Shown here in pieces: positions 33,138 through 42,253 of a stretch of 64,000 bases of DNA. Source of the stretch: SAR92 clade bacterium H231 (GTDB lineage Bacteria; Pseudomonadota; Gammaproteobacteria; Pseudomonadales; Porticoccaceae); contig JAOALC010000003.1 in the NCBI GenBank assembly GCA_025153775.1, positions 310,001-374,000 on the forward strand. The letters run 5' to 3'. The notes under the pieces are model-generated. The model worked only from the letters and a program-made list of their open reading frames with translations. It had not been told where the DNA came from and did no database searches. Each line of letters opens with the position of its first letter. Within the stretch, counting starts at the first letter, position 1. Made by a program: the position numbers and the translations under genes.

Positions 33138-33198
33138 AATTTGGGATTGGATGGCTGGGTCGAACCGCACAACGGAAGTGAAATCAAGGAATGAAATT

Positions 33199-33876
33199 AT
33201 GCACGTTCTTATTGTTGATGATCATGCTTTCGTCTGTGTTGGCCTCAAGGCGACTTTAAGCGAAGAATTTGATGATATACAGGTAACCACCACAGATCAT
33301 GGTGATACTGCTCTAACGATTCTGGCGAAAGAAAGCATTGATCTGGCGATAGTAGACCTATTTATGCCCGGCGGTGCCGGTGGGTTTAACTTTATTGAAA
33401 TGCTCTGTGAGAGTTATCCCAAGCTCCCACTGATTGTGTTGTCCGCCTCTGAAAATCCAACTCATATCCGCAAATGTCTCGATTTTGGTGCCGCCGGCTT
33501 TGTTACTAAATCTGCACCTAAAGATGCGCTTTTTGAAGCTATAGCTAAGGCATTATCTGGTGAGCGCTATGTGCCTGACTCATTAATTGAATCTATGCCG
33601 GAAGTGGCTCGAGTAATTGACGAGGTGGATTCAGGTGCCGATATAGACATAATTTCAGCGCTGGTGACCGACCGACAAATGGATATTCTGCTGCGGATTA
33701 CTCAGGGCCGCTCAAATAAGCAGATTGCCCGAGAACTGGACCTGTCAGAAAACACTGTTAAGGTGCATGTCAGCGCTATGCTCAGGGCTCTGGGGCTTAG
33801 CAATAGAACCCAGGCAGGGATACTGGGCCAGAAACTTGGCCTCGCCGAGCCTTCAGATACCAACAAATATCCTTAA
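33199..33876 (+). CDS. NarL/FixJ-family response regulator
   Basis: A 225-residue DNA-binding regulator. The receiver has the acidic pair in LIVDDHAF, the phospho-acceptor Asp53 (AIVDLFMPGG), and the lysine in FVTKSAP. The LuxR-type helix-turn-helix is at about residues 155-210 (LTDRQMDILLRITQGRSNKQIAREL, then SENTVKVHV). The ATG at 33199 follows CAAGGA; an upstream in-frame ATG at 33151 would add 16 poorly conserved residues. It resembles NarL-like more than GacA. It precedes the receptor and kinase genes and is likely their output, with the hybrid kinase's HPt domain as phosphate donor (inference). Confidence 0.9.
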   Translation: MHVLIVDDHAFVCVGLKATLSEEFDDIQVTTTDHGDTALTILAKESIDLAIVDLFMPGGAGGFNFIEMLCESYPKLPLIVLSASENPTHIRKCLDFGAAGFVTKSAPKDALFEAIAKALSGERYVPDSLIESMPEVARVIDEVDSGADIDIISALVTDRQMDILLRITQGRSNKQIARELDLSENTVKVHVSAMLRALGLSNRTQAGILGQKLGLAEPSDTNKYP

Positions 33877-33905: not shown

Positions 33906-35954
33906 ATGACTTATAATCCTGCCGCAAATTTGATGTTGCTATGCTGCTGCATTCTTTTTGTGTTCTCGTCTGCCCGGGCAGATATGGTAACTGAGGATGA
34001 TCTCCTCGCCGACATTCATCTGGTGTCCAGCGTTACCCATATGAATCAAACTCTGGATCAAACCCCTGCGGCAGTTACTATTATTGATCGCAGAACCATC
34101 AAAGCTTCGGCAGCTGTGGATGTGCTGGATTTATTTCGGCTAGTTCCAGGGTTTCGCGCCTATTATGTCAATGCCAATTTCCCGGGAGTGACCTACCACG
34201 CCCTGGGTGACGACAACCCTCGCCGACTGGAAGTAAAAATAGATGGCCGCTCTGTTTATGAGTCCATTTTCTCCTCAGTGGAATGGACCACTCTGGGCGT
34301 TGAGTTGGATGATATTGACTATATTGAAGTAGTGCGAGGGGGCAACGCCCCGGCAGATGGCAGCAATGCATTTTTAGCCTCTATTAATATAGTGACGCGG
34401 TCACCGCTGCAGGAAGCGGGCTGGAAAGTTCACAGTCAGATTGGCAATCACAATATTCGTAATAATGCGATCAGTTACTCAGGACAGCTGGGGGCTGTAC
34501 AGCACCGCACAGTGCTACGTCATAGCAGTAATGATGGTTTTGAGGATTTTGCTGGCAACTATGCTGGTCAGTTTACGCAAATCGCTCTGGATGACGGCGC
34601 GGATACCACCACCTTTGGTTTTAGGGGTCTCTGGACCCCTAGCGCCAAAGACAGTATCGAGTTGCAATTCGGTTTTAACGATAGTGAGGTGGGGATAGGC
34701 GAGAGAAACTACATTCTCAGGCAAATTGATTATCAGTATCAGCATCTTAACTGGTCGAGAATTAACAGTGACGGAAGTACTTTTGAATTTACCTCCTATC
34801 ACAATAAATTTGATATTTCTGATCAACAAGATGCCCTCACATTTTACCAGGCACTTAATTTTTTCCCAGAAGGCCCCCTCAAAGAGTCGCTGGCACAGCT
34901 GCCGGATAAGCTAATTATTGAACCATCCCACAAAGCTATTTCGGAGCGCTGGGATTCTGAGTTTAGAGCTACCTTTGATCATAGGCACAATGTTCGTGCT
35001 GCCTATGGCGCTGCCTTAAGGCGTGATAAAGTAAAAAGTAATATGCTATTTGATATGTCTGATGTATCAGCTGAGAACTCCTCTCGAGTCTTTGCTCATT
35101 TTGAATGGCAGATGAGTGATAAATTAATCGCCAATACTGGTTTTATGTCCGAATCAAAGGATGGTGGGTTGCGGGTTGGCTCTTATCGAATGGCGTTCAA
35201 TTACCAGCTGGCCAATAACCATACTCTTAGACTGGCATTCAATCGTGGTCATCGCGCTCCCACACTTCTCGAGAGTAATCAGTCTACTTTTGTTCGCTAT
35301 GATGAAAATCTGATTCTGGATGGCGTTGTTGTCTCTGACTCAGATATTCATGCGGAAAAACTGATTAGCTCAGAGCTGGGCTATGCAGGTTCTCTGTTCA
35401 ATGATCACCTTCATTTGGATATGCGCCTGTTCTCAGAAAAAATGTCAGATGTTATTGCAGAGCGCCGAGAACAGTACCCCGATTTTGATGGGCAGCTCAA
35501 TATTCGTGATAACACAGATTCTGTAACGGCTCGAGGTCTGGAATGGCAGGCTCAGTATCGGCCTAGCTCTCAGTTCTTGATTCATGCTAACTATAGTTTT
35601 GTTGATCTAACTCACAGTGCTTTTTATCGATCTACACCAGTAGAGGAAATTCGTGATTTAAGCGGAGTCAACCCAAAACATCTAGGTTCCCTATTGGTTA
35701 ACTATTTAACCAAACGAGAGTTAAGCCTGAGTGCCATGCTGAGTCACCAGTCAAGGATCAGACATTTTTCAGGAAACGATGATGAGGGCTTTACTCGTCT
35801 TGATGTAAAGGCCGCTAAGAGCTGGCAGTTAGCTGGCAAGGATGCTGAAGTCGCGCTAACCATTCAAAATCTTGGCAGTGATTATCGTGAAAATTATTTC
35901 TATAACCAGTTTTCCACTCGTTATGTGCTGAGTTTAAAAATTGGCTTACTTTAA
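33906..35954 (+). CDS. TonB-dependent outer-membrane receptor
   Basis: A 682-residue outer-membrane receptor. The signal peptide ends at about residue 25 (FSSARA). The plug domain follows: QTPAAVTIIDRRTI, VLDLFRLVPGFRA, DDIDYIEVVRGGNAPADGSNAF and INIVTRSP. A 22-strand-type barrel runs to a C-terminal hydrophobic end (YVLSLKIGLL). No clear TonB box is visible before the plug, as in receptors of the type seen next to signalling genes. It lies between a response regulator and a periplasmic binding protein/hybrid kinase pair, so it may take up the ligand these proteins sense (inference). Ligand unknown. Confidence 0.88.
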   Translation: MTYNPAANLMLLCCCILFVFSSARADMVTEDDLLADIHLVSSVTHMNQTLDQTPAAVTIIDRRTIKASAAVDVLDLFRLVPGFRAYYVNANFPGVTYHALGDDNPRRLEVKIDGRSVYESIFSSVEWTTLGVELDDIDYIEVVRGGNAPADGSNAFLASINIVTRSPLQEAGWKVHSQIGNHNIRNNAISYSGQLGAVQHRTVLRHSSNDGFEDFAGNYAGQFTQIALDDGADTTTFGFRGLWTPSAKDSIELQFGFNDSEVGIGERNYILRQIDYQYQHLNWSRINSDGSTFEFTSYHNKFDISDQQDALTFYQALNFFPEGPLKESLAQLPDKLIIEPSHKAISERWDSEFRATFDHRHNVRAAYGAALRRDKVKSNMLFDMSDVSAENSSRVFAHFEWQMSDKLIANTGFMSESKDGGLRVGSYRMAFNYQLANNHTLRLAFNRGHRAPTLLESNQSTFVRYDENLILDGVVVSDSDIHAEKLISSELGYAGSLFNDHLHLDMRLFSEKMSDVIAERREQYPDFDGQLNIRDNTDSVTARGLEWQAQYRPSSQFLIHANYSFVDLTHSAFYRSTPVEEIRDLSGVNPKHLGSLLVNYLTKRELSLSAMLSHQSRIRHFSGNDDEGFTRLDVKAAKSWQLAGKDAEVALTIQNLGSDYRENYFYNQFSTRYVLSLKIGLL

Positions 35955-35998
35955 GTATCTATTCGACTATTTGATGAGATGAGATATACCCAAAAGCA

Positions 35999-36979
35999 AT
36001 GAATATTTTTTATAAATGGCCATTCCGCTTTATCTCAACTAGGTATCTAGGTGCCTGGGTTCTGCTGTGTATTATATTTAGTAATCCGCTGTTGGCAGCC
36101 AGCTCTGAAACACCTAGAAAAATAGCATTTGTTATCAGTAAAGCGTCCCCAGCTTATCAGCAGGTGGTTACTGGTGCTGAAGAAAAATTATTGGGACAGT
36201 CTAGTGTCTATTCCTTTGACGGCATGCTGCAAGGAGCTGACAGAAAAATTGATCAGGCTATAGAGACTGCCGATATTATTGTGACTGTGGGTGCTGGTGC
36301 AACAGAAGCTGTAGTCAGCAAAGGTCCCTCACAGCCTGTTATTGCAGCGTTAATTACCGATAGCGCTTTCTCGGCAATAGCTGAAAAATATTATGCTTCC
36401 AGACAGCAGGCGCTGGATTCTGGTTTGTCAGTTATCTGTCTAGATCAGCCAGTAAAACGCAGTATTGAACTATCCAAGATGCTTATGCCTTCAGCATCAA
36501 ATGTGGGTCTGATGCTTGGCCCTGCGTCACTGCCTAGACTCGAGGAGTTTGGCAGCCATGTTAGCAATGCGGGTATGAATCCTATTCTGGTCGCGGTTAA
36601 TGCCAGAGATAACCCTATTAAAGTACTAGAGCCGGCCATCAAACGCGCTGATGTGTTTATTCCAGTGCCAGACAGTCGACTGATAAATATATCTACGGCC
36701 AAGTGGATACTTCAGCTGAGTTACAGATACAAGGTACCAGTAGTTGCCTATTCTCGGGCCTACCTTAAAGCAGGTGCGTTGGCCGCTGTTTACACCTCAC
36801 CTGAGAATGTGGCTCAGCAGGTATCTGAGCTGGTGGCCGAGGTGGTCAATTCCGAAGAAGGTATAGGTTTGGCTCATATGCCAGCCTATTTTTCCGTTGA
36901 GTTTAATACCAATGTGGCTGAGCATCTGGGTATTGATCTAAAGGATACAGAGTTTTATCTCGAACGGTTGAATGACTAA
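35999..36979 (+). CDS. Periplasmic ABC_sub_bind family protein (sensor-associated)
   Basis: A 326-residue exported protein. The signal peptide covers about residues 10-34 (LLCIIFSNPLLAAS). The fold matches the ABC transporter substrate-binding family PF04392: VTVGAGATEAV, SVICLDQPVKRSIELSKMLMP, VGLMLGP, and ALAAVYTSPENVAQQVSEL near the end. No ABC permease or ATPase gene is nearby. The stop overlaps the kinase start by 8 bases, so it most likely hands a ligand signal to that kinase rather than to a transporter (inference). Confidence 0.85.
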   Translation: MNIFYKWPFRFISTRYLGAWVLLCIIFSNPLLAASSETPRKIAFVISKASPAYQQVVTGAEEKLLGQSSVYSFDGMLQGADRKIDQAIETADIIVTVGAGATEAVVSKGPSQPVIAALITDSAFSAIAEKYYASRQQALDSGLSVICLDQPVKRSIELSKMLMPSASNVGLMLGPASLPRLEEFGSHVSNAGMNPILVAVNARDNPIKVLEPAIKRADVFIPVPDSRLINISTAKWILQLSYRYKVPVVAYSRAYLKAGALAAVYTSPENVAQQVSELVAEVVNSEEGIGLAHMPAYFSVEFNTNVAEHLGIDLKDTEFYLERLND

Positions 36980-39242
36980 GATGGGATTCCAGAACCGACT
37001 TAATAGTATCCATGCTCGACTGTTGATCACAGGCTTGATTCCATTGGCTATGTTAAGTCTGGTGCTGGGTTGGTACATGATTTCTTCCCAGAGCAAGGAA
37101 CTGCTCTCCAATATGCATGACACCGGCCGTGTGGCATCCAATCAGATGGCATCGAGCGCTGAATTTGCGCTCTATTCGGGCAATCAGGAAATGCTCAGAA
37201 CACTGGGTGATTCTGTTCTCGATATTCCGTCGGTTTCGGGCATGCTATTTTACAATTCGGCCGATCGACAAACAGTAAGGATTGGCGATATAGATATTTC
37301 CATCGAGCAAATGCCAGCCGATTTTGACTCGGGGAAACCTTTTTTTATAGATGATCGCTGGTATTTTTATTCGACAATCACACTGCAACATAGATCAGTG
37401 GAAGATTATGATGAATTGGGAGAGCCGGTCTCCGAAAAGCTTGGCTGGGTACTGGTGTCTCTCACTAACGAAATTCTACTGTACAAACAGCGCCGCGCTA
37501 TCTTTGGCGCACTTATAGTTATTACCCTTGGGCTTCTGGTTGCAGCTTGGATATCTATGAGAATCGGGCGCAGTATTTCACGGCCTCTAGAGGGTCTTAC
37601 CCAGGTGGTTGAGGTTATGGAGGCCGGTGGCCTCGAATCCCTGGCCAGTGAAGAGGGGCCCCTTGAGCTGCGCAAACTGTCCTATGGCATCAATCAGTTG
37701 GCGACCAGTGTAAAACAGTCCAATGTGCGTATGCAGAGCGAAATTGCCCGGGCTACGGCCCAGTTGCAGATCACTCTTATCGAACTCGAGGACGCGATGG
37801 AAGCCCAGGATCAGTTTCTTGCGCGCATGAGTCATGAACTGAGAACGCCATTGACTGCAGTGATTGGGTTTTCAAAATTACTGTCGACGGAGCTGGATGA
37901 TCGCAAGCGCGATGAACACCTGAGGGTTATTGAGCGCTCATCGACTATGTTGCTGACCATGATTGATGATATTTTAGAATTCTCCAAGGCCCATCTGGGA
38001 GGGTTTACCCTTGAAGAGATCAACTTTGATATAAACCAGTGGCTGCGGGATACCATGGCAATCCACCAACAGCGCGCCGATGAAAAGGGGCTAGAGTTCA
38101 CCCTGGATCTAGGCGAGGATGTGCCCTCACAGCTGTGCGGCGACCCAGTGCGATTGACCCAAATATTAGCCAACCTGATCAACAATGCGATTAAGTTTAC
38201 CGACAAGGGTTTTGTGGCCCTCAAGCTGCGCTGCCAATCCATTGAGGATGATATTGTCACCCTTGAATGTACCGTTGCTGATTCGGGTAAAGGTATAGCT
38301 GCAGAAAAGATTCCCAGTCTGTTCGACCCATTTTCCCAGGAAGATACCTCGATTAATCGCCGGTTTGGCGGCACTGGTTTGGGGCTTTCGATCTGTCAGC
38401 GTTTGGCTCAGGCAATGGGTGGTGATGTGACCATAGAGAGCACCGTGGGCCAAGGTTCGAATATTAGCTTTAGCTGCCGCCTTTCTGTTGCTCGGTCAGA
38501 GAAATCTGAGTCCGATGCCGCGAGCACTCTAGCTCCAGCGGAACAGCTACTTAAAGGGGTGATAGTGCTGGTCGCCGAGGACAATCCCTTTAATCAAAAG
38601 CTAATTGTTAAGCTGTTAGAGGGCTATGGCGCTACCTGCATGGTGGCTAATAATGGGTTGGAAGCTGTGGAGCTGGCCGATGAGTTACATGCAGATATTA
38701 TTCTAATGGACCTGCATATGCCGGTGGTTGACGGTGTAGCTGCCTGCGAGAGTATTATGCAGCAATCTGGCGATAGCCCACCTATTATTGGCCTTACCGC
38801 AGATATCACCCAGGCTGAGCATCAGAGAATGCTCTCGGCGGGGGCTATCTGTGTGCAGTCCAAGCCACTGGATGAAGTAAAGTTAGTCAATGCCATGCTC
38901 AGCTCGCTCAGCGACCAGCGACAGGTATCCGAGGGCTTCGAAGGTGGGTTGCTGGCATCGGTGATGCCTGTAGATGAACTGAAAGCGGCCCTGTTCGATA
39001 ATTTAGATAAGCTTGAAACTCAACTAAGCGCTGGTGAGAAAAGCAGCCTGAGGCAAATTATTCACGATCTTATGGGGCTGTGTGGGCTCTATGGTATGTC
39101 TCAACTGCGTGAGCTGGTGCTTGAGTTTAGGGCCACCTATGGCACCCTGAACATGCCTGACAACCTAAGAAAAGTTCATGAGATACGCCAGCATATTGAA
39201 GATTTCTTATCCTCAAAAGCTAGCCAGCCACCTGCTGGTTAA
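36972..39242 (+). CDS. BarA/GacS-like hybrid histidine kinase (HAMP-HisKA-HATPase-REC-HPt)
   Basis: A 756-residue inner-membrane sensor. Transmembrane 1 is at about 17-36 and a periplasmic domain at 38-170 (SSAEFALYSGNQEM, as in BarA-type sensors). Transmembrane 2 is at about 176-196 with HAMP at 197-250. HisKA carries the phospho-His288 in MSHELRTPLTAV; HATPase spans about 390-505 (N-box LINNAIKF, G-boxes DSGKGIA and FGGTGLGLS). A receiver at about 530-645 has Asp580 (ILMDLHMP). A C-terminal HPt at about 665-750 has His698 in IIHDLMGLCG, lacking the usual lysine after the histidine. This is the BarA/GacS layout. A Csr-type small RNA candidate follows directly, which fits Gac signalling, but no GacA-like regulator is adjacent; the NarL-type one upstream is the nearest partner. 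Confidence 0.9.
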   Translation: MTKMGFQNRLNSIHARLLITGLIPLAMLSLVLGWYMISSQSKELLSNMHDTGRVASNQMASSAEFALYSGNQEMLRTLGDSVLDIPSVSGMLFYNSADRQTVRIGDIDISIEQMPADFDSGKPFFIDDRWYFYSTITLQHRSVEDYDELGEPVSEKLGWVLVSLTNEILLYKQRRAIFGALIVITLGLLVAAWISMRIGRSISRPLEGLTQVVEVMEAGGLESLASEEGPLELRKLSYGINQLATSVKQSNVRMQSEIARATAQLQITLIELEDAMEAQDQFLARMSHELRTPLTAVIGFSKLLSTELDDRKRDEHLRVIERSSTMLLTMIDDILEFSKAHLGGFTLEEINFDINQWLRDTMAIHQQRADEKGLEFTLDLGEDVPSQLCGDPVRLTQILANLINNAIKFTDKGFVALKLRCQSIEDDIVTLECTVADSGKGIAAEKIPSLFDPFSQEDTSINRRFGGTGLGLSICQRLAQAMGGDVTIESTVGQGSNISFSCRLSVARSEKSESDAASTLAPAEQLLKGVIVLVAEDNPFNQKLIVKLLEGYGATCMVANNGLEAVELADELHADIILMDLHMPVVDGVAACESIMQQSGDSPPIIGLTADITQAEHQRMLSAGAICVQSKPLDEVKLVNAMLSSLSDQRQVSEGFEGGLLASVMPVDELKAALFDNLDKLETQLSAGEKSSLRQIIHDLMGLCGLYGMSQLRELVLEFRATYGTLNMPDNLRKVHEIRQHIEDFLSSKASQPPAG

Positions 39243-39365
39243 CTAGTACTTTTGTATTAATCCGTCAGTGTAATTTTATTCCTTGTCTCAATCCGTTAAC
39301 TTAGTAGCTAGCATTGACTCCTTGGCATGAAGCTTTGACAGGGACTTTACTGGTAAAAATACACA

Positions 39366-39659
39366 GACCTACACTGCTGTAAGAAGGGTAACACTGTAAA
39401 CAGGACGTTTTAGAGCTAAGTTGACAGGGAGTTAACTTTAGGGACAGAAGCTCGCTCAGTTGTTAATTTTCGTTTGCTACCAGTTGTGCGGTATAGACGA
39501 CTAGGAAGTCGTGCGCCATGGAGTGGCGCGAGTCAATCTTTAAAGCAAAGCATGGTGGATACAGGTTTTCCCTTATTTATAACTAGTATTATTAGCATAG
39601 CTAGATTTTTTGGTACAAAAGCTACTTTGACCCCTAGGTTGCAAAACCCAGGGGTTTTT
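39366..39659 (+). ncRNA. Candidate CsrA/RsmA-sequestering small RNA (CsrB/RsmY/RsmZ type)
   Basis: A gene-free stretch with a string of hairpins whose loops carry ANGGA, the CsrA/RsmA recognition motif. These are: AAAC-AGGAC-GTTT (39398-39410); GTTGAC-AGGGA-GTTAAC (39420-39436, one wobble); CTTT-AGGGACA-GAAG (39436-39450, weak); ACGACT-AGGA-AGTCGT (39497-39512, perfect); and GCGCCA-TGGAG-TGGCGC (39513-39529, perfect). Further GGA motifs lie at 39341-39344 and 39557-39559. A strong intrinsic terminator ends it at 39659. No protein frame is plausible. The 5' end is not fixed: TTGACA at 39335-39340 with a weak -10 near 39358 would start it near 39366. A half GacA-like box (TGTAAG) at 39378-39383 would suggest a later start. 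Confidence 0.75.
39631..39659 (+). terminator. Intrinsic terminator of the small RNA
   Basis: A 10-bp stem (39631-39640 with 39645-39654, one A-C mismatch) with a GCAA tetraloop, followed at once by TTTTT (39655-39659). It is about 390 bases after the kinase stop and 105 before rnr, so it most likely ends an RNA made from the intergenic region. Confidence 0.88.
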
Positions 39660-39661
39660 CA

Positions 39662-39691
39662 TTGGCCTCGGACTGCACTGCTAATTATAAA
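39662..39691 (+). promoter_or_regulatory. Putative sigma-70 promoter for rnr
   Basis: TTGGCC (39662-39667) and TATAAA (39686-39691) are separated by 18 bases. It lies just after the terminator and about 75 bases before the rnr ATG. Four of six -35 bases and five of six -10 bases match consensus. Confidence 0.4.
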
Positions 39692-39763
39692 CCCTAGTAA
39701 TAATTACTTTTACTCCCAGAGCATTAGGCCATAGACTGTGACAAATCACCGGTCAGAGACCCT

Positions 39764-42253
39764 ATGCCTAAAAAAACCAAACAGCCAGATCCATTTGCGA
39801 CCAGAGAGGCGGCCAAATACGACCGACCCATTCCCAGTCGCGAGTTTGTTCTCGATTATCTCCGTGAAAGTATTGGCCCACTCACCCATGAGGAAATTTG
39901 CGCCGCCTTAACTCTTACTGAGGATGAACAGATTGAAGCCATGCGTCGGCGTCTGCGAGCAATGGAGCGAGATGGCCAGGTAGCGCGCAATCGACGGGGA
40001 GGCTACGGCACCCTGGATAAGCTTAATCTGGTGAAGGGCAGGGTGATTGGTCACCCGGAGGGCTATGGTTTTGTCTCGCCAGTGCAGGGCGATGGCCAGG
40101 ATATTTATCTTTCCAGTGCCCAGATGCGCCGAGTTTTTGATGGCGATATAGTGCTGGTGAGAATTGCTGGCTGGGATCGCCGCGGGCGGCCAGATGGCAG
40201 CCTGGTAGATGTGGTTGAGCGCAAAACTACCCAGCTGGTAGGTCGCTATTTTCGCGAGAGTGGCATCAGTTTTGTGCGCCCGGACAATCCCCGAATCAGC
40301 CAGGATATTCTTATTCCCGGCGATAAATCTCTAAATGCAGATCCCGGTCAAATAGTGTTGGTCAATATAGTTGAGCCACCGTCCAGAAACAGCCTGCCGG
40401 TCGGCCATATTGGCGAAGTCCTGGGTGAGCACCTGGACCCTGGTCTGGAAATCGATATGTCGATTCGCAACTATGGTATCCCCTACCTTTGGAGTGACGA
40501 GCTGCTTGCAGAGACCGCGGCTATTCCAGATGAGGTACAGGATAAAGAGCTGCGGGTAGATTTAAGAAATACGCCGCTAATCACCATTGATGGGGAAGAC
40601 GCGCGAGATTTTGATGATGCAGTCTACTGTCAGCCCAAGGCTCGTGGTGGCTGGACCCTAATTGTGGCCATAGCAGACGTGTCTCATTATGTGACAGTGG
40701 GCTCTGCTCTGGACCGGGAGGCTTATGAGCGCGGCAACTCAGTGTACTTCCCCAATCATGTAGTACCCATGCTTCCTGAAAAGCTATCCAATGGCCTGTG
40801 CTCGCTAAATCCGGCGGAGGACCGCCTGTGTATGGTCTGTGAGATGCAGATAAGCGCAGAGGGTGAGGTTAGTCGCTACCAGTTTTATGAAGCCGTGATG
40901 CACTCCCATGCGCGTATGACCTACACCCAGGTGGCACATATTCTGGCCGAGAGAGATCAGGACAACAGCTCTGGCATACGCAAACAGTTTGCGGCTATTC
41001 TGCCCCAGGTTGACGCACTCCACGATCTGTACAAAGTACTTCATCGCCGTCGAGCAAAGCGCGGGGCCATCGACTTTGATAGCCAGGAAACCAGAATTCT
41101 CTTCGATAGCCAGCGCAAGATAAGCCAGATTATTCCCGTTGACCGCACAGAGGCTCACCGGCTAATTGAAGAGTGCATGCTGTGCGCCAATGTCTGTTCT
41201 GCACAGTTTTTGGATAAGGTTAAGATCCCCGCACTCTACAGGGTTCACGAGGGTCCCAGTGATGAGCGCCTGGCCTCGGTGCGAGATTTTCTCGGTGAAC
41301 TGGGTATTGGCCTAGGGGGCGGCGATGACCCCCAGCCGGAAGACTACCAGCGGGTACTCAGATCGGTGAAAGGCAGAGATGATGCCGCTGTTATACAGTC
41401 GGTCATGTTGCGATCAATGAGTCAGGCCATGTATCAGCCAGAGAATTTTGGTCATTTTGGTCTTGCCTTTGATGCCTATACCCACTTCACTTCGCCGATT
41501 CGTCGCTACGCTGACCTGCTGGTGCACAGGGCTATTCGCAGCCTGATTCGCAGCAAGAAAAAACTCTCTGCTGTGCAGCGCGTACCAGGTGCATCCGTAC
41601 TAGACCAGCAAAGCATCTATCCCTACGAGCTTGGCCGCTTAGCTGAGACTGGCGAGCATCTGTCCGTGACCGAACGGCGCGCCGATGAGGCGACCAGAGA
41701 TGTGGTTAACTGGCTTAAGTGCGAATATCTCATGGACCATGTGGGCGAGCAGTATGCTGGTGTCGTCAGTGCAGTAACTGGTTTTGGACTGTTTGTGATG
41801 CTCGATGACCTCTATGTCGAGGGTCTGATCCATGTCACCGGGTTACCCAAGGACTACTACTATCATGAGGCGTCTCATCATCGCATGGTGGGTGAGCGCA
41901 CCGGGCGGATTTTCCGCCTGGGACAGAAACTTCAGGTCAGATTAACACGAGTTAATCTGGAGGAGCGCAAAATTGATTTCGAGTTAGTAGACCCCGCCAG
42001 TGCAGGGACCAGTGGGCGAGGCGCCGGAGAAAAACCAGATCAAACATCTGGTAAAAAGACCAGATTGTCGTCAAAAGCGGCAGCTATGGCGGATGAATAC
42101 GAGAAGAAACGCAAAAGCCGCGGCAAAAAGAAAACCGGTGCTGCGGCGAAAAAGAAAACCGGCGCCAAACGCCGCAAATCTACTGTGGCAAAGGGGCCGG
42201 GCGGCAAGCCTGGGGCAACAAAAGCCAGGGGCAAGAAAAAGCCCCGCAGCTAA
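39764..42253 (+). CDS. rnr: Ribonuclease R
   Basis: An 829-residue 3'-to-5' exoribonuclease that degrades structured RNA. Seen in order: N-terminal helix-turn-helix (about 20-85, ILDYLRES-like start), cold-shock domains (GRVIGHPEGYGFVSP), the RNB catalytic domain (DGEDARDFDDAVY with the metal-binding aspartates, ADVSHYV, HFTSPIRRYADL), an S1 domain (YAGVVSAVTGFGLFVML), then a long Lys/Arg-rich tail of about 80 residues. Length and order are standard. The 23S rRNA methyltransferase gene rlmB, often next, is not downstream; the convergent DUF484 gene is. The stop lies within the loop of a hairpin. Confidence 0.96.
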   Translation: MPKKTKQPDPFATREAAKYDRPIPSREFVLDYLRESIGPLTHEEICAALTLTEDEQIEAMRRRLRAMERDGQVARNRRGGYGTLDKLNLVKGRVIGHPEGYGFVSPVQGDGQDIYLSSAQMRRVFDGDIVLVRIAGWDRRGRPDGSLVDVVERKTTQLVGRYFRESGISFVRPDNPRISQDILIPGDKSLNADPGQIVLVNIVEPPSRNSLPVGHIGEVLGEHLDPGLEIDMSIRNYGIPYLWSDELLAETAAIPDEVQDKELRVDLRNTPLITIDGEDARDFDDAVYCQPKARGGWTLIVAIADVSHYVTVGSALDREAYERGNSVYFPNHVVPMLPEKLSNGLCSLNPAEDRLCMVCEMQISAEGEVSRYQFYEAVMHSHARMTYTQVAHILAERDQDNSSGIRKQFAAILPQVDALHDLYKVLHRRRAKRGAIDFDSQETRILFDSQRKISQIIPVDRTEAHRLIEECMLCANVCSAQFLDKVKIPALYRVHEGPSDERLASVRDFLGELGIGLGGGDDPQPEDYQRVLRSVKGRDDAAVIQSVMLRSMSQAMYQPENFGHFGLAFDAYTHFTSPIRRYADLLVHRAIRSLIRSKKKLSAVQRVPGASVLDQQSIYPYELGRLAETGEHLSVTERRADEATRDVVNWLKCEYLMDHVGEQYAGVVSAVTGFGLFVMLDDLYVEGLIHVTGLPKDYYYHEASHHRMVGERTGRIFRLGQKLQVRLTRVNLEERKIDFELVDPASAGTSGRGAGEKPDQTSGKKTRLSSKAAAMADEYEKKRKSRGKKKTGAAAKKKTGAKRRKSTVAKGPGGKPGATKARGKKKPRS

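Follow-up and report, generated by a model that had tools for sequence, protein, structure and literature searches.

The gap between a hybrid histidine kinase gene and rnr in SAR92 clade bacterium H231 very probably encodes an undescribed, conserved small RNA of the Csr/Rsm type that sequesters CsrA, and this was the best explanation of the data as a whole. We found that the element is conserved among relatives, that its stems covary, that its GGA motifs stay constant, that it has a promoter and terminator context, and that csrA is present in the same genome. The presumed mechanism is ordinary; what is unusual is the modular copy number, the linkage to a two-component system that the curated models do not class as GacS/GacA, and a sister lineage that has the RNA nearly without CsrA motifs.

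All positions refer to the window, which means the whole 64,000-nucleotide stretch of DNA that was analysed. The order in the window is regulator, TonB-dependent receptor, substrate-binding protein, kinase, RNA and rnr (Table 1). The substrate-binding protein matched NCBIfam TrpX weakly (39 bits, cut-off 390), and the closest named relatives of the kinase were found in Porticoccaceae, HTCC2207-like and SAR92-clade genomes. A protein-coding reading of the gap, the TTG-initiated open reading frame at 39474-39734, was rejected, since this frame reads across the terminator and the alignment of relatives shows indels of lengths other than multiples of three.

Table 1 Features of the RNA locus and its neighbours in the window
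Feature	Position	Strand	Sequence or structure	Basis or remark
LuxR-type response regulator	33151..33876	+	REC and GerE domains	Pfam and GerE search; probable kinase partner
TonB-dependent receptor	33906..35954	+		Pfam; between regulator and kinase
ABC-type substrate-binding protein	35999..36979	+		Pfam; upstream of kinase
Hybrid histidine kinase	36972..39242	+	HAMP-HisKA-HATPase-REC-Hpt	Domain search; HAMP and Hpt just under Pfam cut-offs
Inverted repeat, candidate activator site	39243..39274	+	CTAGTACTTTTGTATTA (39243-39259) / GTCAGTGTAAT (39264-39274)	About 130 nt upstream of likely start
Conserved promoter-proximal block	39313..39369	+	ATTGRCTCCY..GCATGAWGC..AGGGA..YTGGTRA	Alignment of 22 loci
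-10-like element	39370..39375	+	TACACT	Alignment of 22 loci
Csr/Rsm-type RNA, about 278 nt	39382..39659	+		5' end placed from the -10-like element
Hairpin 1	39398..39410	+	AAAC-AGGAC-GTTT	Loop AGGAC
Hairpin 2	39418..39438	+	AAGTTGAC-AGGGA-GTTAACTT	Loop AGGGA; 16 different stems among modules
Site 3	39440..39444	+	AGGGA	Conserved, mostly unpaired
Hairpin 4	39497..39512	+	ACGACT-AGGA-AGTCGT	Loop AGGA
Hairpin 5	39512..39530	+	TGCGCCA-TGGAG-TGGCGCG	Loop ATGGA; followed by GAGTCAAT (39530-39537)
Intrinsic terminator	39629..39659	+		Fold
Separate rnr promoter-like sequence	39708..39737	+	TTTTACTC..CATAGACT	By eye; similar in RNA-less relatives
rnr (ribonuclease R)	39764..42253	+		Pfam

The initial annotation had described five hairpins that present A(N)GGA, and all five were found where it had placed them. 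With a hairpin rule of a stem of at least 4 pairs, at most one GU pair and a loop of 4-8 nt, the interval contained 5 hairpins, and 0 of 1000 dinucleotide shuffles reached that number (mean 0.5, maximum 4). When stems of at least 5 were demanded, the interval held 3 hairpins, which was attained by 1 of 1000 shuffles. Among 1302 segments of 294 nt from both strands of the 64 kb, four or more hairpins were seen only in two that overlie the feature. The third hairpin as first described (CTTT-AGGGACA-GAAG, 39436-39450) was only half borne out: its GGA was present in 29/29 modules collected from relatives, but a stem of at least 4 pairs could form in only 4/29. The claim that extra GGA motifs flank the hairpins proved weak; the interval has five A(N)GGA in total, the AGGGA at 39340-39344 sits upstream of the likely start, and the GGTGGA near 39557 is not ANGGA.

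The free energy of the interval was unremarkable (z of -1.2, with 20 of 200 shuffles equally stable), and single-sequence folding of the full RNA favoured hairpins 4 and 5 (pair probability 0.62-1.0) but not 1-3 (0.10-0.29). What stands out is where A(N)GGA falls, in the loops, and not the total folding energy; the case for hairpins 1 and 2 rests on covariation. Along the window RNA the GGA motifs are spaced by 25, 14, 62 and 16 nt; an excerpt of PMC7652899 states that one CsrA dimer can bridge sites separated by 10-63 nt, the best spacing being above 18.

To follow the element in relatives, the gap was used in a sequence search of 56 genomes, which gave 12 other genomes of the same genus at E<=1.1e-15. 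A match to rnr was obtained in 44 of the 50 genomes of the genus (none in G012 and G058), the gaps were read, and modules were cut out by means of a hairpin-2 anchor; 29 modules were aligned with MAFFT without fitting (alignment A1). One locus with unusual spacing (L048 of G065) was left out of A1, and its genome was still counted as a bearer by the covariance model R1. The arrays of G002 and G001 were broken or truncated, so their module counts are lower bounds, and G031, which ends inside the first module, lies outside the bearers. R1 found the module in 24/50 same-genus genomes at E<=9.7e-27, none of which had a further strong locus, and gave no strong match outside the genus across 293 genomes of the order (best E 7.7e-6). 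A candidate second copy in the own genome at C1:86885 (R1 E 0.026, 21 bits) was taken as part of a protein gene by its sequence.

The covariation structure formed pairs in 87.3% of alignment cells, against 26-42% when the partners were slid by 1-3 columns. Changes on both sides were seen in 14/35 pairs (shuffle mean 10.1, 4/500 as high) and in 91 double-change cells vs 33.6 in shuffles (0/500 as high); further pair types were not above shuffles (39 vs 40.5). RNAalifold independently recovered the inner closing stem and hairpins 1, 2 and 5, where 11/20 pairs differed on both sides in at least one sequence. For the closing stem, the outer pairs had no covariation support. In hairpin 2, 4/8 pairs were changed on both sides, and two nearly invariant pairs, U-G and G-U (23/29 and 28/29), fit a transcript of the + strand; the stem rule undercounts this hairpin because it allows one GU pair. 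Hairpin 5 was present in 24 of the 29 minimum-energy folds of single modules; the counts were 17, 16 and 15 for hairpins 1, 2 and 4, but 5 for the closing stem and 3 for the inner GRGC stem.

GGA was kept at sites 1-5 in 25, 29, 29, 28 and 29 of the 29 modules, and A(N)GGA in 24, 29, 29, 18 and 29, the 18 at site 4 being counted by loop letters and rising to 22 when stem letters before the loop are included; since the modules come from related genomes, these counts are not independent events. The initial annotation had named relatives that lose the GGA loops while the stems vary as evidence against its reading; in the 29 modules the loops were kept and the stems covaried, which strongly supports the Csr/Rsm-type class. 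csrA was present in the own genome, in 42/50 same-genus genomes and in 23/24 RNA bearers. The own CsrA has L4 and R44, residues that are highlighted in a figure legend of PMC7652899.

The 26/50 same-genus genomes without a strong R1 match, 19 of which have csrA, fell into several kinds. Eight had a gap of 117-133 nt before rnr and no RNA, with the kinase upstream in seven and a match of only 51 residues in G006. Seven had rplS directly before rnr (L19 was identified by Pfam for the G056 copy and by eye for the others), and six small genomes had a diverged RNA, which in one case followed rplS. The rest were a diverged locus (G060), the contig end in G031, and three genomes with no rnr match.

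The sequences upstream of the RNA were strongly conserved in 22 loci aligned on TACACT; the constancy of TACACT itself in these loci is by construction because they were anchored on it. A promoter scan found no sigma-70 pair for the RNA. The terminator that had been reported to end at 39659 was seen in the fold, as a stem at 39629-39656 plus a T-run to 39659. The consensus terminator scan did not list it, perhaps owing to its mismatch. In relatives a terminator lies downstream of the last module with its sequence changed, and the terminator finder gave none for L033 and doubtful calls for some loci. The element sits in the gap between kinase and rnr, on the same strand as both, and its start site is deduced from the -10-like element, so it might be read as an untranslated part of its neighbours, either the 3' UTR of the regulator-kinase operon or the rnr leader. 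We regard this as very improbable: the terminator parts the RNA from rnr, rnr keeps its own promoter-like sequence in RNA-less relatives, and the RNA with its upstream blocks persists in three genomes (G004, G028 and G056) where the kinase is a C-terminal remnant.

The RNA is also modular. Four module copies were found in G070, three in G022, two in each of G057 and G033, and at least two in G001; the corresponding R1 counts were 4, 3, 2, 2 and 3, with one of the last being partial. Between modules, no run of five T was found in the five multi-copy genomes, and TACACT was repeated only in G033. Four of the five arrays therefore look like one transcript; in G001 the promoter lies beyond the contig end. 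A perfect 8-bp inverted repeat, ATTGACTC (39313-39320) and GAGTCAAT (39530-39537), flanks the unit of promoter and module in the window and could be chance. The duplicated unit of G033 (L047) has about the borders of this repeat by eye.

The initial annotation had called the kinase BarA/GacS-like. BarA was indeed its best NCBIfam match, but the score of 437 bits stayed below the BarA cut-off of 890. The regulator scored 85 bits against UvrY/SirA/GacA (cut-off 280), 121 against ErdR and 110 against NarL, all under the NCBIfam cut-offs. By sequence, the pair thus classifies as neither BarA nor UvrY/GacA at the curated NCBIfam cut-offs. The GacA box has the consensus TGTAAG-N6-CTTACA. With this consensus and up to 3 mismatches, no box was found between 35951 and 59689, hence none near the RNA, and the whole window had 9 matches vs 24.7 expected by chance. 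An inverted repeat directly after the kinase stop codon was found by pattern in 18/22 aligned loci and in 0/8 loci with the short kinase-rnr gap. The repeat is kept where the regulator is lost, in G028 and G056 by pattern and in G004 by eye, and because it persists in these regulator-less genomes, it is only a candidate site for regulator binding.

Control of the RNA by the adjacent kinase, as had been proposed, was supported in part. The regulator was commoner in RNA bearers, being present in 21/24 of them vs 13/26 other genomes (Fisher p=0.006 from presence lists compiled by hand, with relatedness ignored), but G004, G028 and G056 have no regulator orthologue and only a kinase remnant (from residues 385, 529 and 609 on, with rplS and other genes upstream), yet their RNA is intact; control by the linked kinase is therefore not obligatory. 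In the 8.5 kb read in these three genomes, the receptor and the binding protein were not found. Regulator and kinase are adjacent in the RNA-less G019. The pair thus appears to be a separate two-component system that in many genomes, but not in all, is coupled to the RNA. A competing explanation, to which we give nearly an even chance, accepts a Csr RNA but takes its control to be unlinked or constitutive everywhere and the kinase linkage to be inherited synteny. The three genomes that keep RNA and promoter blocks without the regulator and the front part of the kinase fit it, as do the seven in which the kinase adjoins rnr without the RNA. It accounts less well for the unequal distribution of the regulator, and for the finding that, among the 7 GerE matches in the own genome (E<=0.001), the gene at 33151-33876 alone reads as a response regulator. 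We still consider the linked regulator-kinase pair the most plausible activator of the RNA in the window genome; since the RNA persists where the pair is gone, other factors must also be able to transcribe it.

A second locus (G000:C4:381000-388500, L086) has a receptor-like open reading frame (TonB-type by eye), an ABC-type binding protein and a BarA-like hybrid kinase of 1539 aa to which GGDEF and EAL domains are fused. Its plan matches window positions 33906-39242.

Six small genomes of 1.2-1.7 Mb (G005, G008, G010, G014, G063 and G064; L070-L075) had an RNA of 183-187 nt, measured from the -10, at the same place. Promoter and terminator were kept, the RNA had 0-2 A(N)GGA, and the loops of the twin hairpins read by eye as AGGGTA and ATAGAT or ATAGAC. 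csrA was present in 5/6 of them. R1 gave nothing significant on these RNAs (best E 0.12), and Rfam gave no match up to E=1 on three of the loci. The homology of this transcript is argued from its place, promoter and terminator because R1 misses it. The constancy of GGA therefore holds for the 29 modules, but these six genomes, which keep the locus and nearly lose A(N)GGA, are a partial counter-example.

Nine loci with weak R1 matches outside the genus were taken up; L127 yielded no sequence, L131 looks protein-coding, and seven belonged to a twin-hairpin element. The element, about 80 nt in length, carries AGGA and ANGGAY hairpins, with GAGTCAA as its tail. A model built from ten copies (R2) found this element in 91/293 genomes of the order (loci read: L126, L128-L130, L132-L134, L138 and L231-L260). 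At 16/30 sampled loci the element followed a tRNA or tmRNA of the same strand at a distance of up to about 310 nt, and 9/26 element-tRNA pairs shared 19-22 nt reaching the tRNA 3' end. An excerpt of PMC8144298 gives as the hallmark of tRNA-linked repeats that the 3' end of the element carries 18-19 nt repeated from the 3' end of the tRNA before it, and reports that one of them in E. coli, RrB (the others named being RrA and RrF), binds CsrA in vitro. The window RNA and the elements found here, which are like tRNA-linked repeats, have in common the hairpin GCRCC-ANGGAY-GGYGC followed by GAGTCAA. Of 45 distinct loops, GGA was in 43 and 44 for the two hairpins and A(N)GGA in 32 and 44, and the stems covaried in an alignment fitted to the model. 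It is possible that the elements act as a distributed CsrA sponge. They often occur several per genome and in tandem, with a spacing of 170-171 nt in G222 and G176. Seven SAR92 genomes have elements within about 1.2 kb downstream of csrA (G018:C1:1108081, G062:C9:187454, G056:C2:216711, G022:C1:2183822-2184668, G033:C20:8370, G011:C2:38899 and G017:C6:118321), with a tRNA-Ser near in 5/5 loci scanned; the csrA gene may thus have CsrA-binding elements beside it.

By the R2 model, hairpin 5 of the window RNA is similar to the hairpin at the 3' side of the twin-hairpin element, and R2 matched the 3' half of the RNA in some relatives (7.5e-5 and 1.3e-4 in G033, 7.7e-6 in L057). Together with the tandem copies in several genomes, this could suggest that the RNA is itself a repetitive element akin to tRNA-linked repeats, moving and multiplying as DNA, with the GGA hairpins as a by-product. 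Such a reading is a long shot: the bearer genomes have a single strong locus each by R1, the resemblance is limited to the 3' hairpins and is weak for the window's own RNA (E 0.018, and absent from the four R2 matches of its genome), and covariation is seen independently in hairpins 1 and 2 and in the inner closing stem. Unlike tRNA-linked repeats as outlined in PMC8144298, the window RNA does not carry the 3' end of a tRNA, and a search of the window with ARAGORN gave no tRNA. A common origin of the twin-hairpin element and the 3' half of the window RNA is possible. A fuller history, which is speculative and in our judgement rather unlikely, would begin with a CsrA-binding tRNA-linked repeat whose 3' hairpin was captured in a promoter-driven sRNA gene. 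The gene would then have evolved through its number of sites: in some SAR92 species the modules would have risen to as many as four, whereas the sister lineage with small genomes would have removed GGA from the loops and retained promoter and terminator, leaving a CsrA-blind RNA at the locus.

For the Csr/Rsm-type RNA itself, transcription, CsrA binding, sequestration and control are predicted from sequence as follows. The stand-alone RNA would start near 39382 and end at the terminator at 39659. In its module, a closing stem holding a pair of GGA hairpins and one free GGA would be followed by two more GGA hairpins placed back to back, and the five GGA sites should suffice for about two CsrA dimers. 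When made, the RNA would bind CsrA and so lift the CsrA control of mRNAs, and SAR92 relatives would change its capacity by multiplying the module in tandem, from one to four copies having been seen. SAR92 bacteria live as marine heterotrophs, and the RNA offers a handle on their post-transcriptional control. Some close relatives have 1, 2, 3 or 4 modules, some have none, and some have the RNA while lacking the regulator and most of the kinase; this natural series addresses how CsrA site number and sensor linkage set the Csr output. A new RNA family could be built from the module alignment.

CsrB/CsrC and RsmX/RsmY/RsmZ are CsrA-sequestering RNAs that depend on BarA/UvrY and GacS/GacA. The comparison with Rfam that the initial annotation had suggested gave no family at gathering score in the window, and at 38900-40100 only two unrelated families up to E=10, none of them among the Csr/Rsm families, which we take to be CsrB, CsrC, RsmX, RsmY, PrrB/RsmZ and TwoAYGGAY. 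Like the known RNAs, the window RNA has several A(N)GGA hairpin loops, an intergenic position, a terminator, and csrA in the genome; unlike them, it has no Rfam match, a conserved layout of its own, no GacA-box match near it, and linkage to a pair scoring under the BarA and UvrY/GacA cut-offs. A literature search found no paper naming both SAR92 and CsrA, and wider searches showed none that we recognised as the window RNA. The CsrA consensus RUACARGGAUGU, quoted in an excerpt of PMC7652899, has a core that the loops of the window RNA resemble. The window RNA can also be compared with CsrR2 of Alcanivorax dieselolei, which an excerpt of PMC9788540 presents as a putative CsrA-related sRNA; CsrR2 has a promoter of its own and six GGA in unpaired positions, is likewise conserved through a marine genus, and adjoins a gene for an Hpt-domain protein. 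In this comparison by description, CsrR2 differs in its synteny (ferredoxin and hpt) (PMC9788540). Tandem duplication as a means of amplifying a Csr RNA also has a counterpart in rsmX-1/rsmX-2 of Pseudomonas brassicacearum; there, according to an excerpt of PMC7911923, the pair consists of two sRNA genes, each with a GacA site, whereas the modules of the SAR92 RNA mostly form one apparent transcript.
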